DNA of 64,000 nucleotides from Xylona heveae TC161. Its lineage: Eukaryota > Ascomycota > Xylonomycetes > Xylonales > Xylonaceae. The notes below the pieces were generated by a model. It did not search any database, was not told the DNA's origin, and saw only the letters and a program-made list of their open reading frames with translations. The number at the start of each line of letters is the position of its first letter. Within the stretch, counting starts at the first letter, position 1. The DNA lies in NCBI RefSeq assembly GCF_001619985.1, contig NW_017264197.1, forward strand, positions 992,001 to 1,056,000. The letters are read 5' to 3'. The position numbers and the translations under genes were made by a program. This document shows positions 69-52,469 of the stretch, in pieces.

Positions 69-336
69 CACGAATCCTCAGTTGTCTCTGGTTAAATTCA
101 TCTCTTCCACGACAACCGTCCCTTATCCCACGCGATACATCGTGAATTCTTATTTGGAATTATTTGAGGCTGGGATATTCTGAATTTAACATTGAACCTA
201 ATTCCGAAACTCAGGGTTACACGGGATCTGATTTCCGCATTAGTTCTCACTACACTCTTTTCATGCGTTCCGATTAATATCTTCTTCTCTGCCAGCACAG
301 AGGGCCTCTGTGTGGTCGAGTCCGAGAGACGGAGTC

Positions 337-3300
337 ATGGGAGGTCCTGGAGGGAAGCGCAAGCGGGGTGAGCGAACCTACTCTCAGGACAGCAACGATG
401 GATCTCGACCGTCGCCGCATCGTCCGGGAAACTTGAATCTCGCCCAACAAAACCAAGCCCATCAAGGTCATCAACAACAATATGAACATCGTGGCCGAGG
501 TGGTCGACGCTACAGCCGTGGAGGTCGAGGTGGTGGCATGCAGCAGAGGAGTCCGTCGAATGGCGCGCAATCCAATTTTACTTCACCTCGAAACACCAAC
601 GCTCTGTCCCCGCCAGCACCACCATCGCAGCTTAGAGAGAGTGTGAGACGCGCTCAAACACCGCCAGCACAACCGTCAACACAACCGTCAACACAACCGT
701 CAGCACCATCAGCACCGGCGCCCCGACCTGACGCTCCAGCACCAGCTTCTGCGCCGATCCAGCCCGTAGCACCCGCCCCGAGCCCGCGACCACCTCAGCC
801 ACCAGTGGAGAAAAAGCCTCCTACTCCCTATAACTATGAATATTTGACAGCTGAACGGGTAGCTTCCTGGAAGGAGGCGGGTCGGAAGGATATTGTCGGC
901 CTGGGTACGAAAGCTCGCACCGGCGAAGACCCCATTATACTCGGAGGGATCTTCCAGGAGCTGCTGAAATCCGGTTTAGATGGCAAAATTGAAGCTATTG
1001 ATGCGGGAAGTGCTATCAAAGACCTTTTGGCGGGGGAGGCGTCTGCCGCCGAAGATGACGCAGCGGACGGCGAAGAGAAGTTTGACCCCCAATCGCTCTT
1101 TCTTGACTGTCTCTCTATCCTGACTGAGAACGATGTCGCGAATCCGCTCCTGCGCACAATTGTTGTGGCGACCGAGGTGTCTCCTGCATTGATGCGACAG
1201 GAACTCGAAACCCCGTTGCTCCAGTCCCTTGGAATGATCAGAGATACTTTTGGTCGAATGGGAATTCGGAAACAGACGAACCTCCTCTACCGTCAATCAA
1301 ACTACAACCTTTTGCGTGAAGAATCCGAGGGATACTCGAAACTTGTGACGGAGTTGTTCACGACTAGCAGCCATGAACCTCCAACAAGTGAGGTGGTGGA
1401 GGAAACTTTTGAGAGGGTCAAAGCCTTGATTGGTGCATTCGATTTGGACGTTGGCCGAGTACTCGATATTACGTTGGACGTCTTTGCTGCAGTTCTTGTG
1501 AAGCAGTATCGCTTCTTTGTTAAATTTCTGCGAGCAAGCTCCTGGTGGCCCAAGGAGAAAATTTTTGAAGGCATCCAATCTTCTGACCAAGGCGTTGGAA
1601 CTCTTCCTCTGTGGGCATTGCCTGGTTCAGCTGGTTGGACCATCGACGATGAGGAGAGGGAAAATCTTTCTCGCTTGAAAGAACAGCGGGATCATGCGTT
1701 CTGGGACCGAGTCCGTGAAGTAGGCATGGATGCTTACTTTGAACTTGGTGGTAGGAGAGTCATTGGAAAATCGGGGCTGGCCCATACGAATGATATTGCT
1801 CATCAAGCATCGGATGCCGACAAAGACATGGAATGGATCGAAACCACTGGGACTCTCCCGCCACAGGGAAACCGAGTCGCTGCTCAGCTCCTTGGCTTCA
1901 AACTACGATTTTACGCATCGCCTGCACGGGACGCCAATGATTCTTTGCCGGTAAATCTGATATACCTGGCTGCTTTGCTCATAAAAATTGGTTTCATCTC
2001 TCTTCGAGATCTCTATCCTCACTTATGGCCCGCCGACGAGGCAATGGAAGCGGTTCGGGAACAGAAAATGAAGGAGAAGGCTGAACGGGAACGCGCAAAT
2101 CGACCTGGTGGAGGCGCAATGAATGCTCTGGCCATGGCTGGAGCTCTTGCCGATGACACAATATCTGTGCCATCACGACTCCGAGAGATCGACGACAATC
2201 GAGGCACACCAAACAGAAACGAAAGCGAAGCGGCGAAGACTCCTGGCAAAGAGGCAGCACAAGAGAGCACCACTGAGGAGGCTGAGAAGGAGAAGCTCCC
2301 GGAACCAGCCGATCAGAAAGTTCAGCTGTTGAAGAGTCTCTTGTGCATTGGTGCCATCCCAGAGTCTCTTTTTATGCTCGGTCGCTTCCCGTGGCTTATG
2401 GATGCGTTCCCTGATCTACCGGCTCACATCCATCGCATATTACATCACTCTTTAAGCAAGGTTTACGAGCCATTGCGGCCGTTGAGTGATCGCGAAGGCT
2501 TGCGACACTCGAAGAAGATACCAGATCCTGATCAATCTGGAGTGCCAAAAGGTCAGGTGCGATTAATAAACGCCCCTGTTCGCAAGGTCTTGCGGTGGGC
2601 TCAGATTGACCGAGACGACACGAATGAAGCAACAGATTATCGTTTCTACTGGGATGAATGGTTAGACCATGTTCCGGCCTGCCAAAATGTCGATGATGTC
2701 TTCTCACTCTGCTCAACGTTTTTGAATTACTCTGGAGTCAAGATTGGCCAGGATCCAGCGCTCTTGATGAAGCTTGCTCGCATAGGGAAGCACAGCCTCA
2801 ATACGGATCCTTCGCCTGAAAACCATGCTCGGTGGATCGACCTGTCAAAGCGTCTCTTGGTACCTGCACTCAGCTTGACCAAGAACAATCCCGGTGTCGT
2901 CAACGAAGTATTTGAGCTGCTGAGGAACTTTCCCACGAGCACCCGCTACTCGATCTACGCTGAATGGTATACTGGTCAAATTTCTCGCTTGCCGGATATC
3001 AAAGTGGCGTTCGATCAGGCCAGAGCAGAGACAAAAGATGTTCTGAAGCGTATCAGCAAGACCAACGTAAAACCCATGGCCAGAGCTCTTGCCAAGGTTG
3101 CCTATGCCTCGCCTGGTGTGGTCTTCTCCGTCGCTATCAGCCAGATTGAATCGTATGATAACCTTGTCGAGGTGGTCGTTGAGTGTGCTCGTTACTTTAC
3201 TTTCCTCGGATATGACGTCCTGACCTGGTCATTGATGAATTCCCTTGGAGGCAAGAATCGCAACCGCGTCCAGGCCGATGGTATGCTAGCCAGTAAATGG

Positions 3301-6300
3301 CTGTCAGCCTTGTCTCTGTTTTCTGGGCGCGTCTTCAAGCGCTATTCTGTCATGAATCCCACTCCGATCCTACAATATGTGACAGATCAAGTTCAAAAGG
3401 GAAACAGCACGGAACTTATTGTCCTCAAGGAGATGACGCTTGCAATGGCTGGCATTGTCGCAGACACGAACTTCAATGAAGCTCAAACACAAGCAATGGC
3501 CGGAGGTAGTCTTCTTCAATCGCTTACTCTCCTCCAATTATTAGATAAACGGCATGAGACGAAAACCACAGCTAAGAGGCTATTGAGAGCCCTGACCGAG
3601 CCAAAACTCGCTGGGCAGCTGCTCATCTCCATTGCTCAAGAGCGACAAACGTGCATTTTCAAGGTGCCGGAGCCGGACGCTCATTTGAAGCTCTTGGGTA
3701 ACCTCCTCGACGAGATCCACAGAGTACTCGCACAGTACCTTGACTTTCTTCGCAGCAATTTGTCAGTCAAGGAATTTGATGGACTTGTTCCAGATGTCAT
3801 CAGCCTCATCCGCGATTTTGGTCTTGACCCAGCCATAGCGTTTTGGTTTAGCAGGCCAAGCATCGTACAGGCCTTGGCCGATGACAGTCAAAGCGCAACT
3901 CCAATTGTACAGGCCTCATCGAAGCCGAGCGAGTCACCTGCAGTTGAAGCTGATGAAAATGTGAACGAGGATGGCGATGTCAGCATGAGTGACGTGAAGC
4001 CCGAAGAGGGTGAGCAGACTGAAGATGCGGATGCAGATCGCGAACAGGGTGAAGAAGTAAGGACACCTGATGTGAAGGAAGCCGAAGAGGTCACGACGAA
4101 CGGAGACCTTGACATGCAAGATAATCTCCCCTCGACAGATGTGCCAACACCGGTGCCAGGTGCTGAGGCTAACAGTACCGGTGAGCCTTGGCACCCTGTT
4201 CTAAAAGATCTGGCAGAGAGAATAAAGGCAGCAATGCCAGAGGAGAACTGGGAAATCCTCAACGCAAACTTTTATATCACCTTCTGGCAATTGACCCCCC
4301 AGGACATGCTGGTTCCGACGCAAAGCTATGATGCTGAAATTACTCGTCAGCAACGCAAGCTGACATCGATTATCAACGACCGCTCAGATATGACTGTAGC
4401 AGGCCTTCAGCGAAAGGACAAGGAGAAGAAGCATCTCGATGATCTAAAGGATCGGCTTCGTGGTGAAATGAAGACGCAAGTTCAGTCTTTCTCTCAAACA
4501 AGAAGTCGACTACAAAGAGAGAAGGACCACTGGTTTCCCAATTTCTGGGGCAAATGGGATGCTCTCAATGAAGCCCTCATTCAAAACTGTTTCCTTCCTC
4601 GCCTACTTCTTTCGCCCTCTGACGCTCTATATACGTTCAAGATGCTCAAATTCCTTCACTTCTCAGGCGCCGCTAATTTCCGCACAATGGGCGTTATCGA
4701 TAATATCTTCAGGGAGAAGCAGCTGACTGCACTAATGTTCATGTGCACTTCTCGAGAAGCGGAGAACCTTGGCCGATTTTTCAATGAGCTCTTTCGTGAT
4801 CTCAGTCGCTGGCACGCCGACAACGCCATCTACGAAAAGGAAGCCTATGGTGTCAAGCGTGACCTCCCTGGGTACGCTAAGAGGTTAAGCAATGAAACCA
4901 AGGGCCCAGAAACATTTTTGGACTTTGAAGAATTCCGCAGACTGCTTTACAAGTGGCACAGAAGCTTCAACAATGCTCTCAAAGCATGTTTCACCGGTGG
5001 CGAATACATGCACATCCGTAACGCGATCATTGTTCTCAAGGCTGTTCATCTCTACTTCCCTGCAGTTAATTGGATTGGCCGAGACCAGCTTACGTGCGTT
5101 ACGGAGCTCAGCCAGAATGAGAAGAGAGAGGACCTCAAGATTGCCGCTACATCTCTTCTTGGCAACCTGAAGCGGCGGGAAAAGCAATGGATGCTTCCTC
5201 AGGCATTCAATCTTGTAAACGCAGGCCTAGTCCGCCAACAAGCTGGCTCAGGAAACCCTAGCAGCCGTGCTGGCTCGGCGGCTCCAGGTACACCTCAACC
5301 AGAGTCCAAGCCCGGGACACCACTCGACGCAACCGCTGTAGAGTTTAGACCAAAGGAGCAAGCAAGGTATGCAACGCCGAAATCAATCGCACTACCGGTA
5401 TACGACAAGAATCTAACACACATCTAGTTCAAATGGTATTCTCGCTCCCCAAGCGAGTACTGATCGAGCTGAAGTTGAGGATGGCGAAATCGAAGACGCC
5501 AAAATGAAAGATGCGTCCACCGCAAAAGCAGAGTCTAAATCAGGAGAAGGCGACAACGCGCAAGATAGGGAGGCGCAAAAGCCGGGATCCTCGACCACCC
5601 CTGTTTCGCACATGACGGAAAATGTAACGGAAAAGACTGAAGACGTTGAACCCGAGGCGTCACAACCCCCAGCTGAATCTGAGGCACCGACCTCTAAATC
5701 GCGACAAGCCCATGAGCAACCGGGGCCAAGTCCAGCACCCTCAGGACCTAGCCTCGATCCACGCCCAAATCTTCGACGAAATGCATCTAATTCTGCAATT
5801 GGACGCCCTCAGCATGCTTTGCCAGTACGACCGGAAGGCCCGCCGCCCAGATCTCATGACCGCCGAACGGGAGAGCAGTTTGGCGAACGGCGTGAAGGAA
5901 GAGATCATCGATTTGCTGAAACAGGAAGAGCAGATCGCCAGGGTGATTACCTGCATGATCGTCGACAAGGCCCGCCGGCCGTGGGCCGTGAGCGGTATAT
6001 GGGTAGTGATCGGGATCGCCGAGATCTGCCTAGGGCAGAAGAACGTGAAGGCTTTGTTCGCGCGCAGGCAGAGGAACGTCCTGGCAGACCTCACAGGGAT
6101 TCTCGTCCGAGGTCAAGAGAGGGAGACTGGCATGAGCGTATGCCGAGCGATAGGTCTTTTGGCCAAGGACTGCCACCCACTTCGCGAGCGTCCGATTTCC
6201 CTGCACGACCGGCTCGAGAATTGACAAACATGGGACCTCCACCGCCAGGTCCGCCTCAACATCATGAACAAGGGGGTTACCTGGCTGCGCAGCCTCATCC

Positions 6301-7933
6301 TGATCGGGCTGCTCTTGTCAATGGACCTCAATATCCCGAGCGGGGCGCTGCTGGTGGCGCCGATGGAGGCCGAAGGGAATCTGGGAGATATGAGAGAGAC
6401 AGTCGTAGAGAGCGTAATTCGCATCCTCAATCTCCATTGCGCCCGGAGGATAATCGGTTGCTTGGGCAACAAATGCGGGAGGATGGACGTGAATACAGCA
6501 GCAACTATGGACCACGCTATGACGAGAATAGACCTCCCACAGGACCAAAGGGGGATCGGCCGCCTAGGGGCGGCATGGGTGACCGGGAAGTGCCTCCACA
6601 ATCAGGGCCTCTCCCTGGTGCCATGGATCAAACTCATGGTCGCTTGAATCAAGATTACAGGCCCCCAGCCCGGCAGCAGGACCCCAACTATGGACGTCTT
6701 AACGCCGGACCAGAAATCCCGTCAGGCCCGCGCGGAAGGGGTCAAGGCAGAGGCGGAAGAAATACGAGTAATGTGCGTCAACAAGAACCACCTTTTCCTA
6801 CGGGACCTCAGATGCCCTCGCCAACCATTTCTGAGCGTCAGCCGCCAAGAGGACCGTCACGCGGTGGGCCACGGACTTCGTCTGCGCAATTCGAGTACCC
6901 ACCATCATCCGGCCGAGCGTCGCCGCCATCTACATCCCACGAAAACGCTCCAGACATGAGTGGAGTACACCCAGACCGGCTGCAGGCACTTCGCAAATCT
7001 CCGGATACTCCACCCTACGTCAAATCAGCCGCATTACCGCCACAGCCGGCAATGGCGGCTCCTCCCGTCCACCCAGGCCCTTCGCCTTCTGGCCCAGCAC
7101 CTTCGGGTCCTCGGAACCAGTACGCTGCACCAGTTAGCCCTGGCGGGCCTGGTTCTGGTGGCAGAAACCCTCCAACTGGACCGTCATCGGGAGGCGACCG
7201 AAACCGGGGCGACAAGCGGTTCGCCGGTATTCAGAATGTCCTTCAGCAGAGTGGCCCTGAGCGCAGTGACCGTGGGCCCCCTGTTCGTGGACGAGGCGGC
7301 AGGTCTGCCAATGCAGGCGGAATGTCGTCTTTTGGCGGCAGCTCTGAGCCATCGACACCTGGCGCAGGCGGTCGCTCCGAAGGCCGACCTGATCTCTTTT
7401 CTGACCGCGTGACTATGCCGAGTGTTGCCACACCTCCAGTCGATGAACGTCCGTCAAGCCGGGCACATCGCACGCGAGGCGGAGAAGGAGACCGCCGTTC
7501 GGCTCGGACCGAGTCCAGCCGACCTAGTAGTCAAGACCGGGCCGCAGGAAGTCGACGTGATGAGGAGCGCGCTCTTAGACGAGAAGATGGGCGTGAATCC
7601 CGCGGCAGCGGACGAGATGACCGAGAGCGCAGCCGTCGATCACGCGGAGACGACGGGCCTTCGCGAGAGCGCCGGGATGGCCGCGGTCGTGACGACGCCG
7701 AGCGCAGAGGCGGAGCCAGCACAAGTGGAGGAACTGTAGGCAACACTGTCGGCGGATCAGAGGAGGGACAACGGTCTTGGGGAAGTGAAACCGGTCGTAC
7801 GCGAGGCAGTGACAGGCGAGATGATCGTGATCGCGAGCGGCGAGACGGACGCAAACGCGGTCGCGGTGGTGACGATTCTGGAACTGGAGAAAGGAGCTTT
7901 GGAGATGGGAAGCGGCCTCGCCGAGCGCAATAA
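337..7933 (+). CDS. tho2: THO complex subunit 2 (THOC2/Tho2)
   Basis: This is the largest subunit of the nuclear THO/TREX complex, which couples transcription elongation to mRNP assembly and export and prevents R-loops. Exons are 337-5366 and 5428-7933. The 61-base intron (GTATGC donor, CTAAC branch near 5413, TAG acceptor) joins a phase-2 codon exactly, giving 2511 residues, a size usual for filamentous fungi. I chose the ATG at 337 (MGGPGGKRKRGERTYS); the open frame runs upstream only through a GTG at 310, not a eukaryotic start. The N-terminus is basic and RGG/Pro/Gln-rich, with a QPST repeat near residue 120. A helical THOC2 N-terminal region follows (about 150-880), then the conserved segment with FELLRNFPTSTRYS (about 860) and the Tho2 C-terminal domain (about 1282-1600, starting EPWHPVLKDL). 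An acidic linker lies near 1200-1280. The last 800 residues are low-complexity and Arg/Gly/Ser-rich, typical of RNA-binding tails. The family call is firm. Confidence 0.93.
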
Positions 7934-40756: not shown

Positions 40757-43039
40757 ATGCCTAGCGGTATGTTGGACAAGACTTGGACTGGGGGAAAGAA
40801 GGGATTCGACAAGGTCTGGGGATGGGCGGATAAGCTTGGAGCACCAGTGAATAAATTATCAAACAAACTTGGCGCAGAAGCGTTCTGGCCAACGACGCTT
40901 GACAAGGAATGCGACAAGGCGGCACGAATTTTGAAAAGCTTTTGCAGTATGCCACTCCTCCTGGAAGCTTTGTAACTTTGTTTTCTAATTTAGTATATAG
41001 AGGATGGGTTCTATGAGGAGACGGTCCAAAAGGGCGTCGACGGCCCGAAACAGAAGCAAAAAGTGCTGAAGAAGATTCCATCAGAGGTAAGTATATCAGA
41101 GGAGCAAATTGCAAATACATACACCTGGAACCTTTTGCTGAGTATATCAAAATAGGTAATTGCCAAGGCTAAGGGTTTAGCAATCTTTACCACGATGCGT
41201 TCAGGTCTATGGATCTCAGGCGCAGGAGGAAGCGGTATTCTTGTGGCGCGAAAAGCAGATGGCACATGGTCTCCGCCGTCTGGTATTCTTCTCCACACCG
41301 CAGGGCTAGGCTTTCTGGTTGGAGTGGACATTTACGACTGCGTCGTAGTCATCAACACTGAAAAAGCACTCGAGGCATTTATGAAGATTCGATGTACGCT
41401 TGGAGGCGAAATCAGCGCCGTAGCAGGCCCGGTCGGCATTGGTGGTGTTGTTGAATCTGAAGTGCACAAGCGACAGGCTCCTGTCTGGACGTATTTGAAA
41501 AGCCGCGGCTTCTATGCTGGTGTGCAAGTGGATGGAACCGTCATCATTGAGCGAACGGACGAGAATGCTCGATTTTATAGCCAGAAAGTTGGAGTCAGGG
41601 ACATTCTGGCCGGCAATGTAAATTTCACGCCATATACTACGCGGATGTTTATGGAGACGCTCAAGGCGGCACAAGGAGACCGCAATATTGATGAGTCTAT
41701 CCTGCCTTCAGAGCCTGCGCCGGGCGACATGGAAGTCGAAAAGCAGGGCCACATTTTCGGCGTGCCAGACGAAGGTGACGAAGACCCGTACGGAGTTTTG
41801 GCTCTGGAGCGAGAAGGCATGGAAATCAGGGAAGCGGGTACAAATTCGCGGCCGACCAGCGAGCAATTTGAGTATCGACCTGCTCCCACGAGTCCTGTGT
41901 ATGCCACGTTCAATCGACGAAGTACGGAGAGTTCGTCTCAAAAGTATGGCGAGGGGAGTCGCCGAGTCAGTCGCATGAGTGCAGTGAGCAACGATGTCGG
42001 TACGCAAACAGCAGAGAATGAGCAAGAGCTGCGCAGCCCCGTGTCCAGATCATCTTTGAAGAAGGACGCAGGATATGCTGATGGACTGGTAACGTCACCA
42101 ACAGTATCCATCTCCGAGCAGGAAGAGCTTGCACTGGAAAAGCAGAAAACCCACGATCAGCCATCGCCATCAAAACGCGCAGCTGATGACGATGATGAGA
42201 ATAACCACAAACAAGAGAATGGCCACGGACCTGAAAACGAAAATGAAATGTCTACTATCCCTCTCGACGACGAACGCGATCACGAACATGAACACGAACA
42301 CGAACAGACGGCCGCTTCTCACGATGACATTTCCACCGAAGCAGTCCCCGTCCAAACCGCGGCTCAGCCACAACGCATCTCTCGAGCCCGCCTCGTCACC
42401 ATTCCCAAGCGCATTCCGCCCGCTCTTCCTCCCCGCAATCCCGGCCGCCGCATGCTTAATGCCGAGCCCACCTCGTCACAGGAGGTTTCTTCATCAGATG
42501 CATCGTCGCCATCAGCCACTACTCCTGCTATCGAAGCCGGGGCATCTGAAGCTCATGAAAATCATGAGACTCCCACAGCCCTTCCAGCGGACGAAGCATC
42601 CGCGCAATCCGAAACCCCAACCTCAACCTCTGCCACCCTCCCTGGCTCCTTTGCCGACGATGACGACGAAGAAGACGAAGCCGGATTCCAGCGCGTCAGC
42701 ATCATTGCCAACCATCGCTCCTCGCAATCTGCACCTGCACCTGCAGATAGCAATGTCAATGCCAACCATGAGGCAGAAGCAGCAAAGGAAGAATCCGCAC
42801 CGCTCACAACAACCGAATCTTCTTCTGCTTCTGCAAAAGCGCCCGCAAATAATAACACCCTCGAAGGCGACGAATTCCATTCTCTCCCTCCTTCGCCAGA
42901 CCGTCCGGCCTCTCCTGCCGCACCAATACTCGAGTCGCATGCTGCATTCAACCATGACAGTCACAATGGTGTTGCAGAGGCGAAGACTGAAAACGGCAGT
43001 GCTAAGAAAGATACGGAAGACAAGGAAGATTTTTCGTAG
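40757..43039 (+). CDS. SYLF (Ysc84/DUF500) domain protein, actin/membrane linked
   Basis: SYLF domains bind phosphoinositides and actin; yeast Ysc84 works in endocytosis. Exons are 40757-40946, 41001-41086 and 41156-43039, with introns of 54 and 69 bases; 719 residues from MPSGMLDKTWTGGKKGFDKV. The SYLF domain covers about residues 45-255, with AKAKGLAIFTTMRSGLW, SGAGGSGILVARKADGTWSP, GFLVGVDIYDCVVV and EISAVAGPVGIGG, all typical. Unlike Ysc84 there is no SH3 domain. The remaining 460 residues are disordered, with an acidic His/Glu repeat (about residues 450-475), a proline motif (IPPALPPRNPGRR) that could bind SH3 domains, and long Ser/Ala/Glu-rich runs. This layout matches the SH3-less filamentous-fungal relatives. 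The function of the tail is unknown. Confidence 0.9.
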
Positions 43040-44580
43040 TTCGTCTTTTTCGTCCTTTCTTCCCCTGTTTTCTTTATTTCCCCGTTTCGTCCTTTCTTCT
43101 ACCTCCCATTTCCCATTTCCCATTTGCCTTTCCCTTTCCCTTTCCCTTTTTTTAATTTCCATTTCGCTTTCATTTTGTCCTTTGCTCTCCTATGCTCTCC
43201 TTGTCTTTGCTTTTCCTTTCCCCCCTTTTTTTCATTTCTTTTTTCTTTATTTCTTCTTCTTTATAGTCTCTTCCTTCTTCCCTTTTCCTTTTCTTCCCCC
43301 TTTTTTTCTTTTCTTTTTCCACTTCAATTCCAGTCAATGCCAGTCAAGCCTCTATCCCTGTCCCTGTCCCTGTCCCCTTTTTTAAACTTTTCCGTATTTT
43401 CTAAAGTTTTAAGTATTTGCTTTTCCTTTTGTCTTCACTTTTAATCCCCATTCTGTGTATCCTCTTCCCCCCCCATTCTGTGTGTGTGTCAGCCATTCCG
43501 TGTGTCTATTTATTAAATCATGCGCCGTTTCGTTATTCAGCGCGGAAGTGACCACGTACGAGTACGAGTACGAGTATCAAGTGTTTACTTGCTGTTTACT
43601 GTGTTTACTTACTGTTTACACTTTACAACTTACGTTTACTGTTTATGTTGATTCCTTACGTTGAGTGTTTACGTGAGTGTTTACACTTTACGTTTAGTGC
43701 TTAGTGGTTAGGTGTATGGTATATTTTATACATTTCAGTTGTGTAGTGTCTTCACATGAGTGTAGTGTCTTTACATTAACGTTTACTGTGTAGTGTCACG
43801 TGTGTAGTGTGTAGTGTGTACTGTGTCACTACCTTACCTTATATCACCTACCTACCTACCTACCCACCCATCTATACCTACTTATCTTAATCCAAGAGGA
43901 TCTTTTTAAGCAACCTGGTATGCTAGTACCAAGCCAAGTAATGAATAAGTTAGTAGGACGATACCTTAGTGATTAGTATTGCATGTTTTTTTTTTTAAGA
44001 GAGACTGAGAGAATATAAGGTAGGTATTGTAGTATTGTACTTTGCATGGCTACACGACCGCAATGCCAGAATGCAGAATGCAGAATGTAGAATGCAGAAT
44101 GTAGAAATATCAGTAAACTTGGCCTCAGGGACGGATGTAATTCTCGACTCTTGATATACTACCAATGTGTCAAGGAAGCAATGGAGGCAATGGTGGCAAG
44201 AGAAGCAAGAGAAGTCAATGCAATAAACATGTATCATTGTTCACTCTGGTCTGGTCGTTTATAATACTGCATTGAGCCATTGCGTCACTGATGTTGTACG
44301 TTGTACGTCGTGTTGTACGTTGAGTTGTACGTTCAAGTTTTACGTGGAAGTTTGAGTTCAAGGGTGGATATGTTATTCAGTTTATATTCCATTTCTTCTA
44401 GAAAAGATAATAAAATACTATGAAAAGAAACCTTTTGAATCAACGACAAACGACAAATCAATCAATACAAGAAGAACACGATATTTGCAGGTTTACGCCC
44501 TTCCAATTTCCCCCCCGTTTTGCCTTTCACGAAATAACCAGAGCATCAAAATAGGAATTAATAAAGGTGTGACAAGACCA
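43040..44580. other. Intergenic between convergent genes, rich in simple repeats
   Basis: A nearly pure C/T stretch (43040-43330) with TTTCCCA and CCCTTT units is followed by a CCCTGT run (43356-43378), GTGTGT and TACGAG short repeats (43480-43580), TGTTTAC-type runs (43585-43700), CCTA repeats (43845-43870) and an AGAATGC/T repeat (44068-44106). No gene supported. Confidence 0.6.
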
Positions 44581-46105: not shown

Positions 46106-46402
46106 TCAGTTTACCGAGGCCTTCCACAAGTGGTCTGTCATGTCGATTAGTATATAGGGCGTCAATCGTTATACTCTGTACAGAGCATCGTACCTGAGAT
46201 GTAGTCCTGCAACGCGTCGAGTCAGCATCAATTGATCATTTCCCGACATGAACGGTATATAGGAAGAAGGACACAAGATTCAGAGGGTCAAGGGTAACAT
46301 TCGGGGACATGAATGACAATAGGACGTGTAGCTTAGAAGGCCTAAAAGGTCGACGGGGATGAGGCATACCTGGGAAGTGTATAGGGTCGCAACCACACGC
46401 AT
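46106..46402 (-). CDS. Arginine attenuator peptide (AAP) uORF of CPA1, spliced from three exons
   Basis: In Neurospora arg-2 and yeast CPA1 a leader peptide stalls the ribosome when arginine is abundant and blocks translation of the main frame. Here the leader is rebuilt from 46402-46370 (33 bases), 46206-46194 (13 bases) and 46134-46106 (29 bases), with GT-AG introns of 163 and 59 bases. The 75 bases encode 24 residues and a stop: MRVVATLYTSQ, then DYIS, then DHLWKASVN. The length equals that of Neurospora AAP, and the core TSQDYxSDHLW is intact with Asp at position 12, the residue essential for stalling in Neurospora. The stop lies 60 bases before the CPA1 ATG. The unspliced leader would not encode the peptide, so splicing is a precondition for attenuation. 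Confidence 0.92.
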
Positions 46403-48080
46403 GCGGGCAACAGTAAGCTTCGACTTCGCTGCTCTTTTAATGGAAAGGGCAGCGGCTCGAAGGCGAGTTGATAAGGGTTTTGTTGAAACTGGGGATGATG
46501 AACAAGTTCAAGCTCAGGGACGTTGGATCGTCTCGTTGAAAGTGGATTGAAGTGACTTTTGGGGGGTAAAAGAAAGGGAAAAGAAGAGAAAGAATTGGCG
46601 GGGGGGGGGGATTTTGATAGAAGAAGTCGGGAGAAGGAGAGTTTAGGGCGCGAAAAAATTGGCCGAAAATGGGCGAATCATTTTAGTTCGCTTGGGCTTA
46701 TCTATCACACGAGTACTTGTTGCTCACACCCAAATTCTATGACGAGAACAAGTACCAATACTGGACCCTGACTCAACTTTTTCGCTACGTAACAAAACAC
46801 CAAAGAGAGTTTATCATCAACCACCACCACCGTCACCGCTCATGACTTTTCCAATGATTATTCACCTCTTTCCTTGTCTTTGCACATTTATATGGATCTT
46901 TCAAAGTGAAATCAATGTTAATACCATCCTCACCGTAGTCCGCACAAGTATCTTTACTGACTTTGAATCTTTATGATGCCTTGGTATGCCGAACTCATTC
47001 AATGACTGGTTGCGGGTTACGATATCTCGGCCCCTCAGGGTGGATTCTAATTACCTCATCCTTATTGGCGATTAATCTAAGTTAGCGATGAGTCAAATAA
47101 AGACGCCTCTGGGGAGCTCCATCACTCCACAATCATTCTCATCAATGGTGTCTATGATACTTTCCACAGATTATCTACATCTCTTTTATCGTCTCCTTGC
47201 TTTCATCTCGTTTGAGTGCTCTTCGGTTTTCCCTCGACATGATTCTAGATATATATTGAAATCGTCATCTACTGTATCACAGTACAAAGCTAGAAGACTG
47301 CTTCTAAAGTTGTGCGGCTAAAGCTCCGACAGGAGAGTACGAGTAAACCTCCTCCGGTCTCGGACCGATATCAAGGATCCACTTTATTCCTAGGAGATCT
47401 CCCAGAGGACGCATTCTGAACATGATCGTCTTGCATTCCGAGATGACCCTCCCGAAGCCACCGATGCGCCGGAAACGCAAATGCCGCCTTCTTCATCTCT
47501 CTACCGAAAGGGTTCAGTGATCCATGTCCGCGGTGGGAAAAGATCAAGCCGTCGTACGCGTTATGTGAAGCCCCTTTGGCGGTGCTGATATCAAAGTCCA
47601 TTCGTGATTTGCCAGCACGTGACTATCAAATGTTTTCTCAAAGCAATCGAACAAGGAGCATTGGCCAATCAACTGTAAGTAAACTAGAATCAATCATTAA
47701 ATTCCTGAAATTGACTTTCACATCCAATTCTCTTTCCAAGTGGACGTCAAAGCCCAACTGTGATTAAAACTGATACATTGACATGTGACCGTGAGACAAA
47801 ATTTATCCCAGTCCTTACCCGGCATTGATGACTCAGCAGCACTTGTCCTCAGACGAGCCCATGACGCCAAAGTCGCAAACCCGACCCCCTTGGGAGGAGC
47901 TTCGTCGCGCGCCCAATCCAAAACACAATTCACCCTTTACACACAACACTCATTCAGAATCTCCTTTTCTATCGCCAGGGTTGCTGTCGCAGGTATTAGA
48001 CTTGCGTGAAATCGCATCTATTCCATGTGATCATCATCACTACACGTTAACTCTCTTTCTCGCTCTTTTCCTTGCCCATC
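46403..48080. other. Divergent promoter region of CPA1 and the Acinus-like gene
   Basis: No gene supported. It holds the CPA1 promoter (a C-less G run at 46600-46609, the TGACTCA site at 46769) and the Acinus-side promoter, which has a second TGACTCA at 47829-47835 and a C/T-rich leader (48020-48075). Confidence 0.5.
46769..46775. promoter_or_regulatory. TGACTCA general amino-acid control site
   Basis: A perfect TGACTCA, the binding site of Gcn4/CpcA/Cpc-1, lies 367 bases upstream of the AAP start codon of CPA1. Arginine genes are classic targets of this regulator, so the site is likely functional. Distance and orientation are acceptable, but binding is inferred. Confidence 0.55.
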
Positions 48081-50039
48081 ATGACCGACTACAGCAAGCT
48101 CAAAGTTGTCGACCTCAAGGCGGAGCTCAAACAGCGTGGCTTACCACAGACGGGACTGAAGCAAGCCCTTATTGACCGTCTTGTCGAGGATGATGCCAAC
48201 TCTCAATCGGCCGCTGCGGATGAAACACCTCAAGAAGCCGAAGCAACGCCTGTTCTTGACCAGCCTGCACCGCAAGAACAACCGGAGCCGGAGGCCCAGG
48301 AAGCTGCAGGTGGCAAACCCGAAATTTCCGTGAACAAGGAAGAGACCGAAATTCCTCAGAAGGAACAGGAGGAACAAGTGACGGGTATTTCAAAGCAGGA
48401 AGCACAGCCGGCTCCTGAGACAAATGGCCACCCCACTTCGCCCACTGGAGCCGACGTCTCGAGTGAGTCTAGAGGCGGCGATGAAGCTCAAACGGAAACT
48501 GCGCAACTGCCCGTCGAAGCACCACCATCATCAGTGCCAGAACAGGCCACAGAAGCTACACGAAGTGAGGATTCGCAATTGCCTGAAGTTGCGCAGAAAC
48601 CAGAGCCAGAAGTTGTGCCAGCATCTGTAGACAAGACTGGAGATGCATCGAGTGCCGGCCAGACTGTTGCGCCCACGCCAACTTCAGTTACAGCGGAAGA
48701 AACACAGGAAGACAACCGGAAACGCAAACGGCGAAGTCACAGTCCCCTTCCATTGCCTAGCGAGACGGCGCAGAAACGCGCGAAGCAGGAGGACCACGGT
48801 GGAGAGGTCCAATTTCACGAAGACGAGGAATCAGAAAATAAGGATCAAAGAGCTCAAAAGGAGGGGATCCCGATAACACCAGAGGAGCATGAAGAAGCGA
48901 AAAGCCAGGAGGAACTGCCTCAGAGGACCGCTGGCGGCGACGAAGCTGTTTCCGCCTCTGAAAAGGAGCAAGAGAAGCCTGAGCGCAGAGAAGAATCACC
49001 TCATGCTCGCGCGTCCCCGCCTGCGCGAGGCGCTGGAACAGGGGACCGACGACTCAAGGACCTCTTTTCCGAATCCTTGAAGGATTCCACGCGTGACAAG
49101 TCGCCGTCACGGCAAGCCGGCCCGTCGACGACATTGGAAGAGGAAGCGGAAGAGGAGGAGGAGGAAGGTCGCACGGTCGGCCCCGCTCTGCACCCTGCCA
49201 CCTCGGCTCTGTACGTCCGGGACTTTATGCGGCCTCTCCAACCTCATACGCTCAAAGCGCATTTGATTTCCCTTGCCACTCCACCAAACTCGTCTCCTGA
49301 TTCGGAGATTCTTCGGACCTTTTTCCTCGATCCTATTCGCACCCACTGCTTCGCCAGCTTTTCCAATGTATCTGCCGCTTCACGGGTGCGCTCCGCATTA
49401 CACGGCCGTGTCTGGCCCGATGAACGCACCCGAAAACCGCTCTGGGCGGACTTTGTGCCTGAAGAGAAGATGGGACAGTGGATCGAAATGGAGCAGAGCT
49501 CGTCCGGTGGGGGCAGGCCCTCTGCCGCCAAGAGGTGGGAAGTGGTCTACGAACCTGCCGAAAATGATGGCGACATGATCGAGGCAGTCTTACGAGAAGC
49601 TGGAGCTGGCTCCTGGAGACCAGAAGCAGGTGCGGGAGCTGGCCGTGGGGTCCAGGGTGCGCCCGAAGGCCCACGTCGCAGCGAGGCAGACTTGTACGAC
49701 CGCCGAAGACCGTCGGACCAAGCGTCCCGTCGACCCTCGAAGCCTGCGAATGCAGGTTTCATGGCCCTCGATACATTGTTCAAATCGACCTCGACCAAAC
49801 CCAAGATATACTATTTACCAGTATCCAAGGATTTATCGGAGAAACGATTGGACGAGCTGGCAGACCGACTGGGTGGACCGGGTCGGAATTTGAGCCGAGG
49901 CGAAGACGAAATGAGACGTTACACATTTGAGGATGGAGACTTGCTGGTCGACCGCGGACTGGACGTAAATCCGGGACGCCGAGGTGGCCCAAGCTATAGG
50001 CGGGGAAATAGCTATGGCAGACGCGGAGGTTGGCGGTAA
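48081..50039 (+). CDS. Acinus-like SAP/RRM protein with RNPS1-SAP18 binding motif
   Basis: Acinus is the scaffold of the ASAP complex (Acinus, RNPS1, SAP18), which joins the exon junction complex and affects splicing. Single exon, 652 residues; the ATG at 48081 begins MTDYSKLKVVDLKAELKQRG. Residues 4-38 are a SAP DNA/RNA-binding motif (LKVVDLKAELKQRGLPQTGL). Residues 40-365 are disordered and Glu/Gln/Pro-rich, with a basic patch (RKRKRRSHSPLPLP). An Acinus-type RRM lies at about 372-470 (LYVRDFMRPLQPHTLKAHLI). Near 560-582, FMALDTLFKSTSTKPKIYYL has the spacing of the Acinus RSB motif (LDxLFxKTxxxPxIYxLPL). The C-terminus is RGG/Tyr-rich. The order SAP-RRM-RSB is diagnostic. Confidence 0.9.
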   Translation: MTDYSKLKVVDLKAELKQRGLPQTGLKQALIDRLVEDDANSQSAAADETPQEAEATPVLDQPAPQEQPEPEAQEAAGGKPEISVNKEETEIPQKEQEEQVTGISKQEAQPAPETNGHPTSPTGADVSSESRGGDEAQTETAQLPVEAPPSSVPEQATEATRSEDSQLPEVAQKPEPEVVPASVDKTGDASSAGQTVAPTPTSVTAEETQEDNRKRKRRSHSPLPLPSETAQKRAKQEDHGGEVQFHEDEESENKDQRAQKEGIPITPEEHEEAKSQEELPQRTAGGDEAVSASEKEQEKPERREESPHARASPPARGAGTGDRRLKDLFSESLKDSTRDKSPSRQAGPSTTLEEEAEEEEEEGRTVGPALHPATSALYVRDFMRPLQPHTLKAHLISLATPPNSSPDSEILRTFFLDPIRTHCFASFSNVSAASRVRSALHGRVWPDERTRKPLWADFVPEEKMGQWIEMEQSSSGGGRPSAAKRWEVVYEPAENDGDMIEAVLREAGAGSWRPEAGAGAGRGVQGAPEGPRRSEADLYDRRRPSDQASRRPSKPANAGFMALDTLFKSTSTKPKIYYLPVSKDLSEKRLDELADRLGGPGRNLSRGEDEMRRYTFEDGDLLVDRGLDVNPGRRGGPSYRRGNSYGRRGGWR

Positions 50040-50543: not shown

Positions 50544-52469
50544 ATGGCTACTTCCACTCCAGAAGCAGGAGCACCCCTCAATGGGGCGGCTACCGCTCCG
50601 CCCGAGGGCTACAGTGAGTATTCACCCTCGCCCAAAAAAAAAAGTGTTACTTGCGCTCCGAAGATCGGCCTTCACAATGTAATCTTCAAATGAAGAGATC
50701 AATGCCAACTAACGTCCCCAGGAAGAATATCCAGCCAGCCTGAGAATCCATTTGCGACATTGATTCCTCACCAGAATATTGTGGTGATACCGTCGTTTAC
50801 GCTAGAGTCGGGAGTGACTCTGCGTAATGTGCCCGTGGCATACACTACGCGGGGCAAATTGTCGCCGAACCGCGACAATGCCATGATCATTTGCCATGCG
50901 CTGACCGGCAGCGCAGACGTGGCAGACTGGTGGGGTCCCTTGATGGGCAAAGGTCGAGCATTTGACGCCTCACGATTCTTCATTGTCTGTCTGAACAGTC
51001 TGGGAAGCCCGTACGGCACTGCCAGTCCAGTGACCAACAAGGACGGAGATCCTTCTTTGGGACGATACGGACCAGAATTTCCTCTGACGACAATCAGAGA
51101 CGATGTCAAGTATGTTTTTGTTCTCTCACATAATTGTCCAAGGTGTTTGACTCCGCTAACATAGTCCCGTTCGAATAGTCTGCACAAATTGATCCTCGAT
51201 AGCTTAGGCGTGAAGCAATTGGCTGCCGTGGTAGGTGGATCCATGGGCGGCATGTTGGTCTTGGAATGGGCATACTTTGGCAAAGACTATGTCCGGTGCA
51301 TTGTGCCCATTGCCACGTCTAGCCAACACAGCGCATGGGGTATCAGCTGGGGCGAGGCTCAGCGACAGAGCATCTACTGCGACCCGAAATATGACGACGG
51401 GTACTATCCCTTTGAAGACCCCCCCACGGCAGGACTGGGTGCCGCCCGCATGTCTGCGCTCCTGACCTACCGAAGCCGCAATTCGTTTGAGTCGCGTTTC
51501 GGCCGCAACACACCTGATCCGTCGCGGCGGCAGAACATTAATGAGCAACCACGACCGCCGACGCCGTCGAACGAGCACTGGGCCGTACACAATGAAGGAC
51601 ACAAGAACCGACGATCTCCGCGCCAGTCGAGCGTGTCCCTGAGCAGTGACGAGCACCGTGCCGCCTTGGCTTCTACCACGTCTACTCCGGCATCCACCTC
51701 CTCCGCTTCCGCTTCCGCCTCGGCAGCATCTATCCACACTGCCTCTTCCACTCCTACTCCCGTCCCTACTCCCGGCGCTGCCGCCACAACCATCAACGGC
51801 ACGAGCGATACCTCCTCCTCTCATCCGCTCACCAACTTTACAGACCCGCAATTCAGCGGCGCCACGACATTCACGCCTCCCCCGCCGCTTTCGACATCCA
51901 ACTCCTCCTCGTCGCTCTCGACCAACCCCCGCAAGCGCGCAGCCACGTACTTCTCCGCGCAATCCTACCTGCGCTACCAGGGCGACAAGTTCGTCAAGCG
52001 CTTCGACAGCAACTGCTACATTGCCATTACGCGCAAACTCGACACCCACGACGTCAGCCGGTACCGCGTCGACCCGTCGTCGCCCAACCCCGTCGGCGAC
52101 GCGCTCGCGCTCATCCAGCAGCCCGCACTCGTCATCGGCATCGAGTCTGACGGCCTCTTCACCTTTGCCGAGCAGCAAGAACTCGCCGCGAGCATCCCCA
52201 AGGCGCGTCTGCGCACCATCGACAGCCCCGAAGGCCACGACGCCTTCTTGCTCCAGTTTGAGCAAGTCAATCACCACATTCTCGACTTCTTTGGCGACGT
52301 CTTGCCGGACATTATGACCTCTGCTCCCATTGACCCGGACTATCGCGATGAAGACGACGTCGACGATGTTGATGCCGAGGCCGCGACGGGTGAGCAATCT
52401 GGTGTAGGCAAGCTGAAGAAGAGCAGCACCTTTGGCGAGGCCGAGGTCGATGACATTACGTCTTGGTGA
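50544..52469 (+). CDS. met2: Homoserine O-acetyltransferase
   Basis: The enzyme transfers acetyl from acetyl-CoA to homoserine, the committed step to methionine in fungi. Exons are 50544-50613, 50722-51109 and 51179-52469, with introns of 108 and 69 bases; 582 residues. It has the alpha/beta-hydrolase fold with nucleophile Ser174 (VGGSMGGM), Asp477 (GIESDGLF) and His506 (PEGHDAF). CHALTGSADVADWWGP and NSLGSPYGTASP are family signatures. Between the two halves of the catalytic core, residues about 262-405 form a Ser/Thr/Pro-rich insertion. This explains the length of 582 against roughly 380 in bacteria and 486 in yeast Met2. The C-terminal 50 residues are acidic. An ATG at 50453 upstream is either a small overlapping frame or part of an optional first exon. 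Confidence 0.94.

Follow-up and report, generated by a model that had tools for sequence, protein, structure and literature searches.

The 64,000-nucleotide stretch of Xylona heveae TC161 DNA analysed here (the window) carries, on its minus strand, a two-exon gene encoding a 463-residue protein. Its second exon matches the Pfam families for the carbamoyl-phosphate synthetase (CPSase) small chain (PF00988, 5.8e-44) and class I glutamine amidotransferase (PF00117, 4.8e-54), and PDB entries for carbamoyl-phosphate synthetases match the full-length protein. We take this gene to be CPA1/arg-2; it would encode the arginine-specific enzyme, and its N-terminus likely carries a mitochondrial presequence. 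In its leader lies a short upstream open reading frame (uORF) divided among three exons, which we read as encoding an arginine attenuator peptide (AAP). The features of the locus, in the order in which they would be transcribed, are:

46769-46775, no strand assigned: TGASTCA element, upstream of the leader
46402-46370, minus strand: AAP uORF exon 1, 33 nt; AUG and residues 1-11 (MRVVATLYTSQ)
46369-46207, minus strand: uORF intron 1, 163 nt, phase 0, GTATGC...TTGCAG, between Gln11 and Asp12; 6 AUGs inside
46206-46194, minus strand: microexon (exon 2), 13 nt; Asp12-Tyr13-Ile14-Ser15 (DYIS) plus base 1 of the Asp16 codon
46193-46135, minus strand: uORF intron 2, 59 nt, phase 1, GTACGA...TGACAG, inside the Asp16 codon; 2 AUGs inside
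46134-46106, minus strand: AAP uORF exon 3, 29 nt; rest of the Asp16 codon, HLWKASVN and TGA
46105-46046, minus strand: spacer from the uORF stop to the CPA1 start codon, 60 nt, no AUG
46045-45869, minus strand: CPA1/arg-2 exon 1; AUG with A at -3
45868-45796, minus strand: CPA1 intron, 73 nt, GTATGT...TTTAG, no CTRAY motif
45795-44581, minus strand: CPA1/arg-2 exon 2; CPSase small chain and glutamine amidotransferase domains

With C at -3, the uORF AUG has a weak context, whereas the CPA1 AUG has A at -3, an arrangement that would fit leaky scanning. The TGASTCA element is presumably a Gcn4/CPC1-type site, but this motif shows no enrichment across the window (9 occurrences against 10.86 expected) and so carries little weight as support. 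An RNA structure or riboswitch in the leader was also considered and dropped: no Rfam match reached the gathering threshold anywhere in the window, and the uORF region folds no better than chance, 182 of 200 shuffled versions being at least as stable.

Downstream of CPA1, low-complexity repeats (TAGG, ACACTAC and GTAAAC-like units) are visible by eye at 43550-44350 on the minus strand. A frame at 48051-50039 on the opposite (plus) strand, pointing away from CPA1, carries a SAP domain together with an RNPS1-SAP18 binding (RSB) motif, and we assume it to be Acinus-like; Acinus works together with splicing and exon-junction complexes, and the closeness of this frame to CPA1 may be coincidence. 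Long open frames also run along both strands of the same 1.3 kb at 51165-52469 (plus) and 51204-52469 (minus); the minus frame, the only one of the two searched, gave no Pfam match.

Identity of the spliced peptide

Joined together, the three minus-strand exons (33 + 13 + 29 nt = 75 nt) encode MRVVATLYTSQDYISDHLWKASVN followed by the stop TGA, that is, 24 residues, or 25 codons with the stop included. The Asp12 codon opens exon 2. In the unspliced leader there is no intact AAP, as the frame from 46402 runs into a stop after 40 codons. Exon 2 is, on the predicted splicing, a microexon: at 13 nt, with GT-AG introns on either side, it falls well inside the upper size of about 36 nt for such internal exons that is given in an excerpt of PMC11121469. 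On re-reading the sequence we recovered the exon coordinates, splice signals and translation of the original prediction, and its count of 25 codons is correct when the stop is counted.

In a phmmer search of 177,635 distinct PDB sequences (E<=10), the spliced peptide had a sole match, 2xl1, named ‘arginine attenuator peptide’ (E=2.3e-5). The PDB match names the molecule only, and we take it to be the Neurospora crassa arg-2 peptide. The alignment is in register, residues 6-21 pairing with residues 6-21 and residues 1-5 lying outside it; 11 of the 16 aligned residues are identical, rising to 10 of 12 across residues 9-20, where the two non-identical positions are Ile/Leu and Lys/Arg. Like the N. 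crassa arg-2 peptide, the Xylona peptide has 24 residues in the same register and lies upstream of the same type of gene; in Xylona, two introns interrupt the peptide's coding region. The core around Asp12, the length, the closed uORF, its weak start and its place in the leader of a CPS small-subunit gene are all those of the AAP class. The AAP call originally made from the sequence is supported by the peptide's sequence, by its length and register, by Asp12, by the location ahead of CPA1 and by the weak context of the start codon. The codon-usage score of the AAP codons is slightly negative (-1.8), 24 codons being too short to be informative.

Splicing with two introns allows many combinations, and a peptide match in three parts might in principle arise by chance from free choice of splice sites. 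To gauge this, we listed the ORFs of 23-26 codons that can be formed with at most two GT-AG introns, each 45-300 nt long, and gave every one a BLOSUM62 score for its match to the 16 AAP residues. In the leader itself (46700-46046, 655 nt) there are 2 candidates without an intron, 16 with one and 53 with two; the AAP scores 73, as against a best score of 31 in 300 dinucleotide-shuffled leaders. Across the whole window, on both strands, it ranks first among 272,049 spliced candidates; the runner-up, at 43, reuses AAP exons 2 and 3, and the best candidate without AAP exons scores only 38 (at 52314, plus strand). Moreover, the match sits upstream of CPA1, which is where an AAP belongs. The PDB match, the shuffled leaders and the window-wide candidates together weigh heavily against chance assembly, which we reject as having negligible probability.

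An alternative start within intron 1 (46310-46106, minus strand) can be joined from a donor at 46274 to AAP exons 2 and 3, giving MSPNVTLDPLNL + DYISDHLWKASVN with a score of 43; the 5′ part of this uORF is probably due to chance.

Splice signals and possible transcript forms

In the 311 nt from 46410 to 46100 there are two NCTRAY branch-like motifs, at 46226 and 46151, one for each acceptor: CTGAC in intron 1, with its branch A 15 nt before the last intron base, and CTAAT in intron 2, where the distance is 12 nt, both of them usual spacings. Of 11 AGs between 46470 and 46100, two have a branch motif at 8-25 nt, and they are exactly the two uORF acceptors; window-wide, 360 of 8305 AGs have one (158 of 4207 plus 202 of 4098). 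For comparison we used four other likely introns of the window, namely the CPA1 intron and two introns of a Ysc84-type gene, all three read by hand with boundaries picked so as to keep the frame, and a candidate at 5367 proposed by an automatic intron finder. The finder performed poorly, returning 3 and then 12 introns, 7 of these 12 without a branch motif, and missing the CPA1 intron both times. The branch motif is present in two of the four comparison introns (Ysc84-type intron 1 and the 5367 candidate) and absent from the other two (the CPA1 intron and Ysc84-type intron 2); it fits the uORF introns, yet it is no certain mark of an intron. The first uORF donor, GTATGC, recurs in the Ysc84-type intron at 40947-41000 and in the 5367 candidate; the second, GTACGA, was found at none of the four.

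In the Ysc84-type gene (40766-43039, plus strand) the two likely introns are short and precede the long frame; with 40947-41000 and 41087-41155 removed, the reading frame runs unbroken into the long Ysc84 ORF. The candidate intron at 5367 (GTATGC...CTAG) lies near the end of the frame of a THO2 (THOC2) mRNA-export gene (310-5427, plus strand) and may join this to 5504-7933 (plus strand), a long frame without a Pfam match.

The splice and branch motifs are consistent with the uORF being part of the mature mRNA. Were transcription to start mainly downstream of 46402, the uORF would seldom be present in mRNA and the AAP exons would be a remnant; in that case an AUG, a frame running over two introns, the core, the stop and the splice and branch motifs would all have remained intact together, a set of working parts that drift would hardly keep, and we consider this reading very improbable.

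We compared six possible forms of the transcript, counting upstream AUGs from 46402 onwards (in the DNA, the nearest AUG further upstream is at 46681). The fully spliced form has 1 upstream AUG and encodes the 24-residue AAP. The form that skips the microexon also has 1, opening an 18-residue uORF without the core: as originally predicted, exon 1 joined to exon 3 gives 62 nt, the frame is lost and the core with its Asp disappears, the product being MRVVATLYTSQTTCGRPR*. There are 7 upstream AUGs when intron 1 is kept, 3 when intron 2 is kept, 3 when acceptor 46194 is used with intron 2 kept, and 9 in the unspliced form, so that intron retention raises the count by 2-8. The AAP is encoded only by the twice-spliced form, which bears out the earlier proposal that the attenuator needs correct splicing. 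As the microexon carries the core (Asp12-Ser15 and one base of Asp16), arginine sensing would need both splices, and given the extra AUGs in the retained introns, intron removal is probably also needed for good translation of CPA1.

This dependence on splicing raises the question of whether splicing itself is regulated, as a second control over arginine repression, which is possible. Microexon inclusion would then decide whether the CPA1 mRNA senses arginine, and we judge this unlikely. The last three bases of the microexon are CAG, and GTACGA comes right after them; splicing exon 1 to acceptor 46194 would thus recreate a donor at the junction, from which skipping could follow: a switch of this kind could be built. 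The skipped form, with its one upstream AUG and a stop before CPA1, could still be translated. Other eukaryotes are reported to splice exons recursively (PMC6224609), and a regulated 20-nt microexon is described in the Xlr2 gene of Trichoderma virens, in an abstract which also states that functional microexons were previously undescribed in filamentous fungi (PMC11121469). The Xlr2 microexon is likewise a very short internal exon, and in that filamentous fungus function depends on its inclusion; it differs in lying in the coding region of a transcription factor, with inclusion responding to glucose, whereas the Xylona microexon lies in a uORF. Against regulation, the proper acceptor at 46207 is the first AG past its branch motif, at a distance of 15 nt as against 28 nt for the following one (46194), which would favour constitutive inclusion of the microexon; and neither the Rfam search of the window nor the folding comparison, with its 182 of 200 shuffles, points to a regulatory structure. 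We therefore give a similarly low probability to recursive skipping at CAG/GTACGA as a route to an inert 18-residue uORF and arginine-blind CPA1 expression, and hold it just as doubtful that intron retention serves to produce a silent CPA1 mRNA.

Proposed attenuation at the CPA1 leader

We propose, at a probability of roughly 0.88, that the Xylona leader carries a normal AAP attenuator assembled from three exons, in which splicing is a constitutive precondition and not a regulated switch; constitutive splicing of the two uORF introns is the most likely behaviour. The peptide, its core, the exon structure, the splice motifs, the AUG contexts and the identity of the gene are what the DNA itself provides, and arginine-induced stalling, leaky scanning and nonsense-mediated decay (NMD) at this leader would follow by analogy with the known AAP family. 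Once both introns had been removed, the weak context of the uORF AUG would let many scanning ribosomes pass on to translate CPA1, and those ribosomes that did read the uORF would produce the AAP. At high arginine the nascent AAP would stall its ribosome at the uORF stop, blocking scanning and lowering CPA1 synthesis, probably with accompanying decay of the mRNA. Since the junction left by the CPA1 intron is 237 nt downstream of the uORF stop, an exon junction complex there could aid this decay where fungi make use of it.

In S. cerevisiae the CPA1 AAP has 25 residues, and its uORF is not known to be split by introns. The Xylona uORF shares with it the gene, the class of mechanism and the conserved Asp (D13 in yeast): according to PMC7969011, the yeast CPA1 uORF has an inefficient start context, its AAP makes ribosomes stall at the uORF stop in the presence of arginine so that synthesis from the main ORF drops, and D13 is needed, D13N abolishing the effect. 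AAP stalling also sets off mRNA decay, as an extract of PMC11550727 has it, and the AAP-bearing transcripts of both S. cerevisiae and N. crassa are given as NMD substrates in a passage of PMC7049704. The same passage describes for the Cryptococcus CPA1 homolog a conserved AAP uORF in the leader, as in Xylona, with strong ribosome occupancy and a transcript that is up in a upf1 mutant.

Neither the peptide nor its function is new; what may be new is the three-exon split, with the core on a 13-nt exon. Among the literature matches listed, none described an intron-split AAP in its title or the start of its abstract (the main AAP survey, Hood 2007, falls outside the scope of this search), and a search combining intron-containing uORFs with the arginine attenuator gave 0 matches. 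A protein scan for AAP relatives gave no match in viral contigs and 26 pattern matches in genome contigs, 0 of them confirmed, and a DNA pattern for the uninterrupted core gave 0 matches in either set; as the scanned sets were of bacteria, archaea and viruses, and such a pattern misses an intron-split core, these counts are no evidence of rarity. The Xylona AAP is best seen as an architectural variant of a known system and, if split AAPs have already been described, as one further example.

An arrest core carried on a 13-nt exon would escape uORF searches of unspliced genomic DNA, and conserved uORFs may therefore be undercounted. Should inclusion of the microexon simply be constitutive, the locus would be of interest for annotation and intron evolution. 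The AAP is, moreover, a textbook sensor acting through a nascent peptide, and its split form in Xylona would allow one to ask, in a simple natural setting, whether control by a nascent peptide can be gated by splicing.
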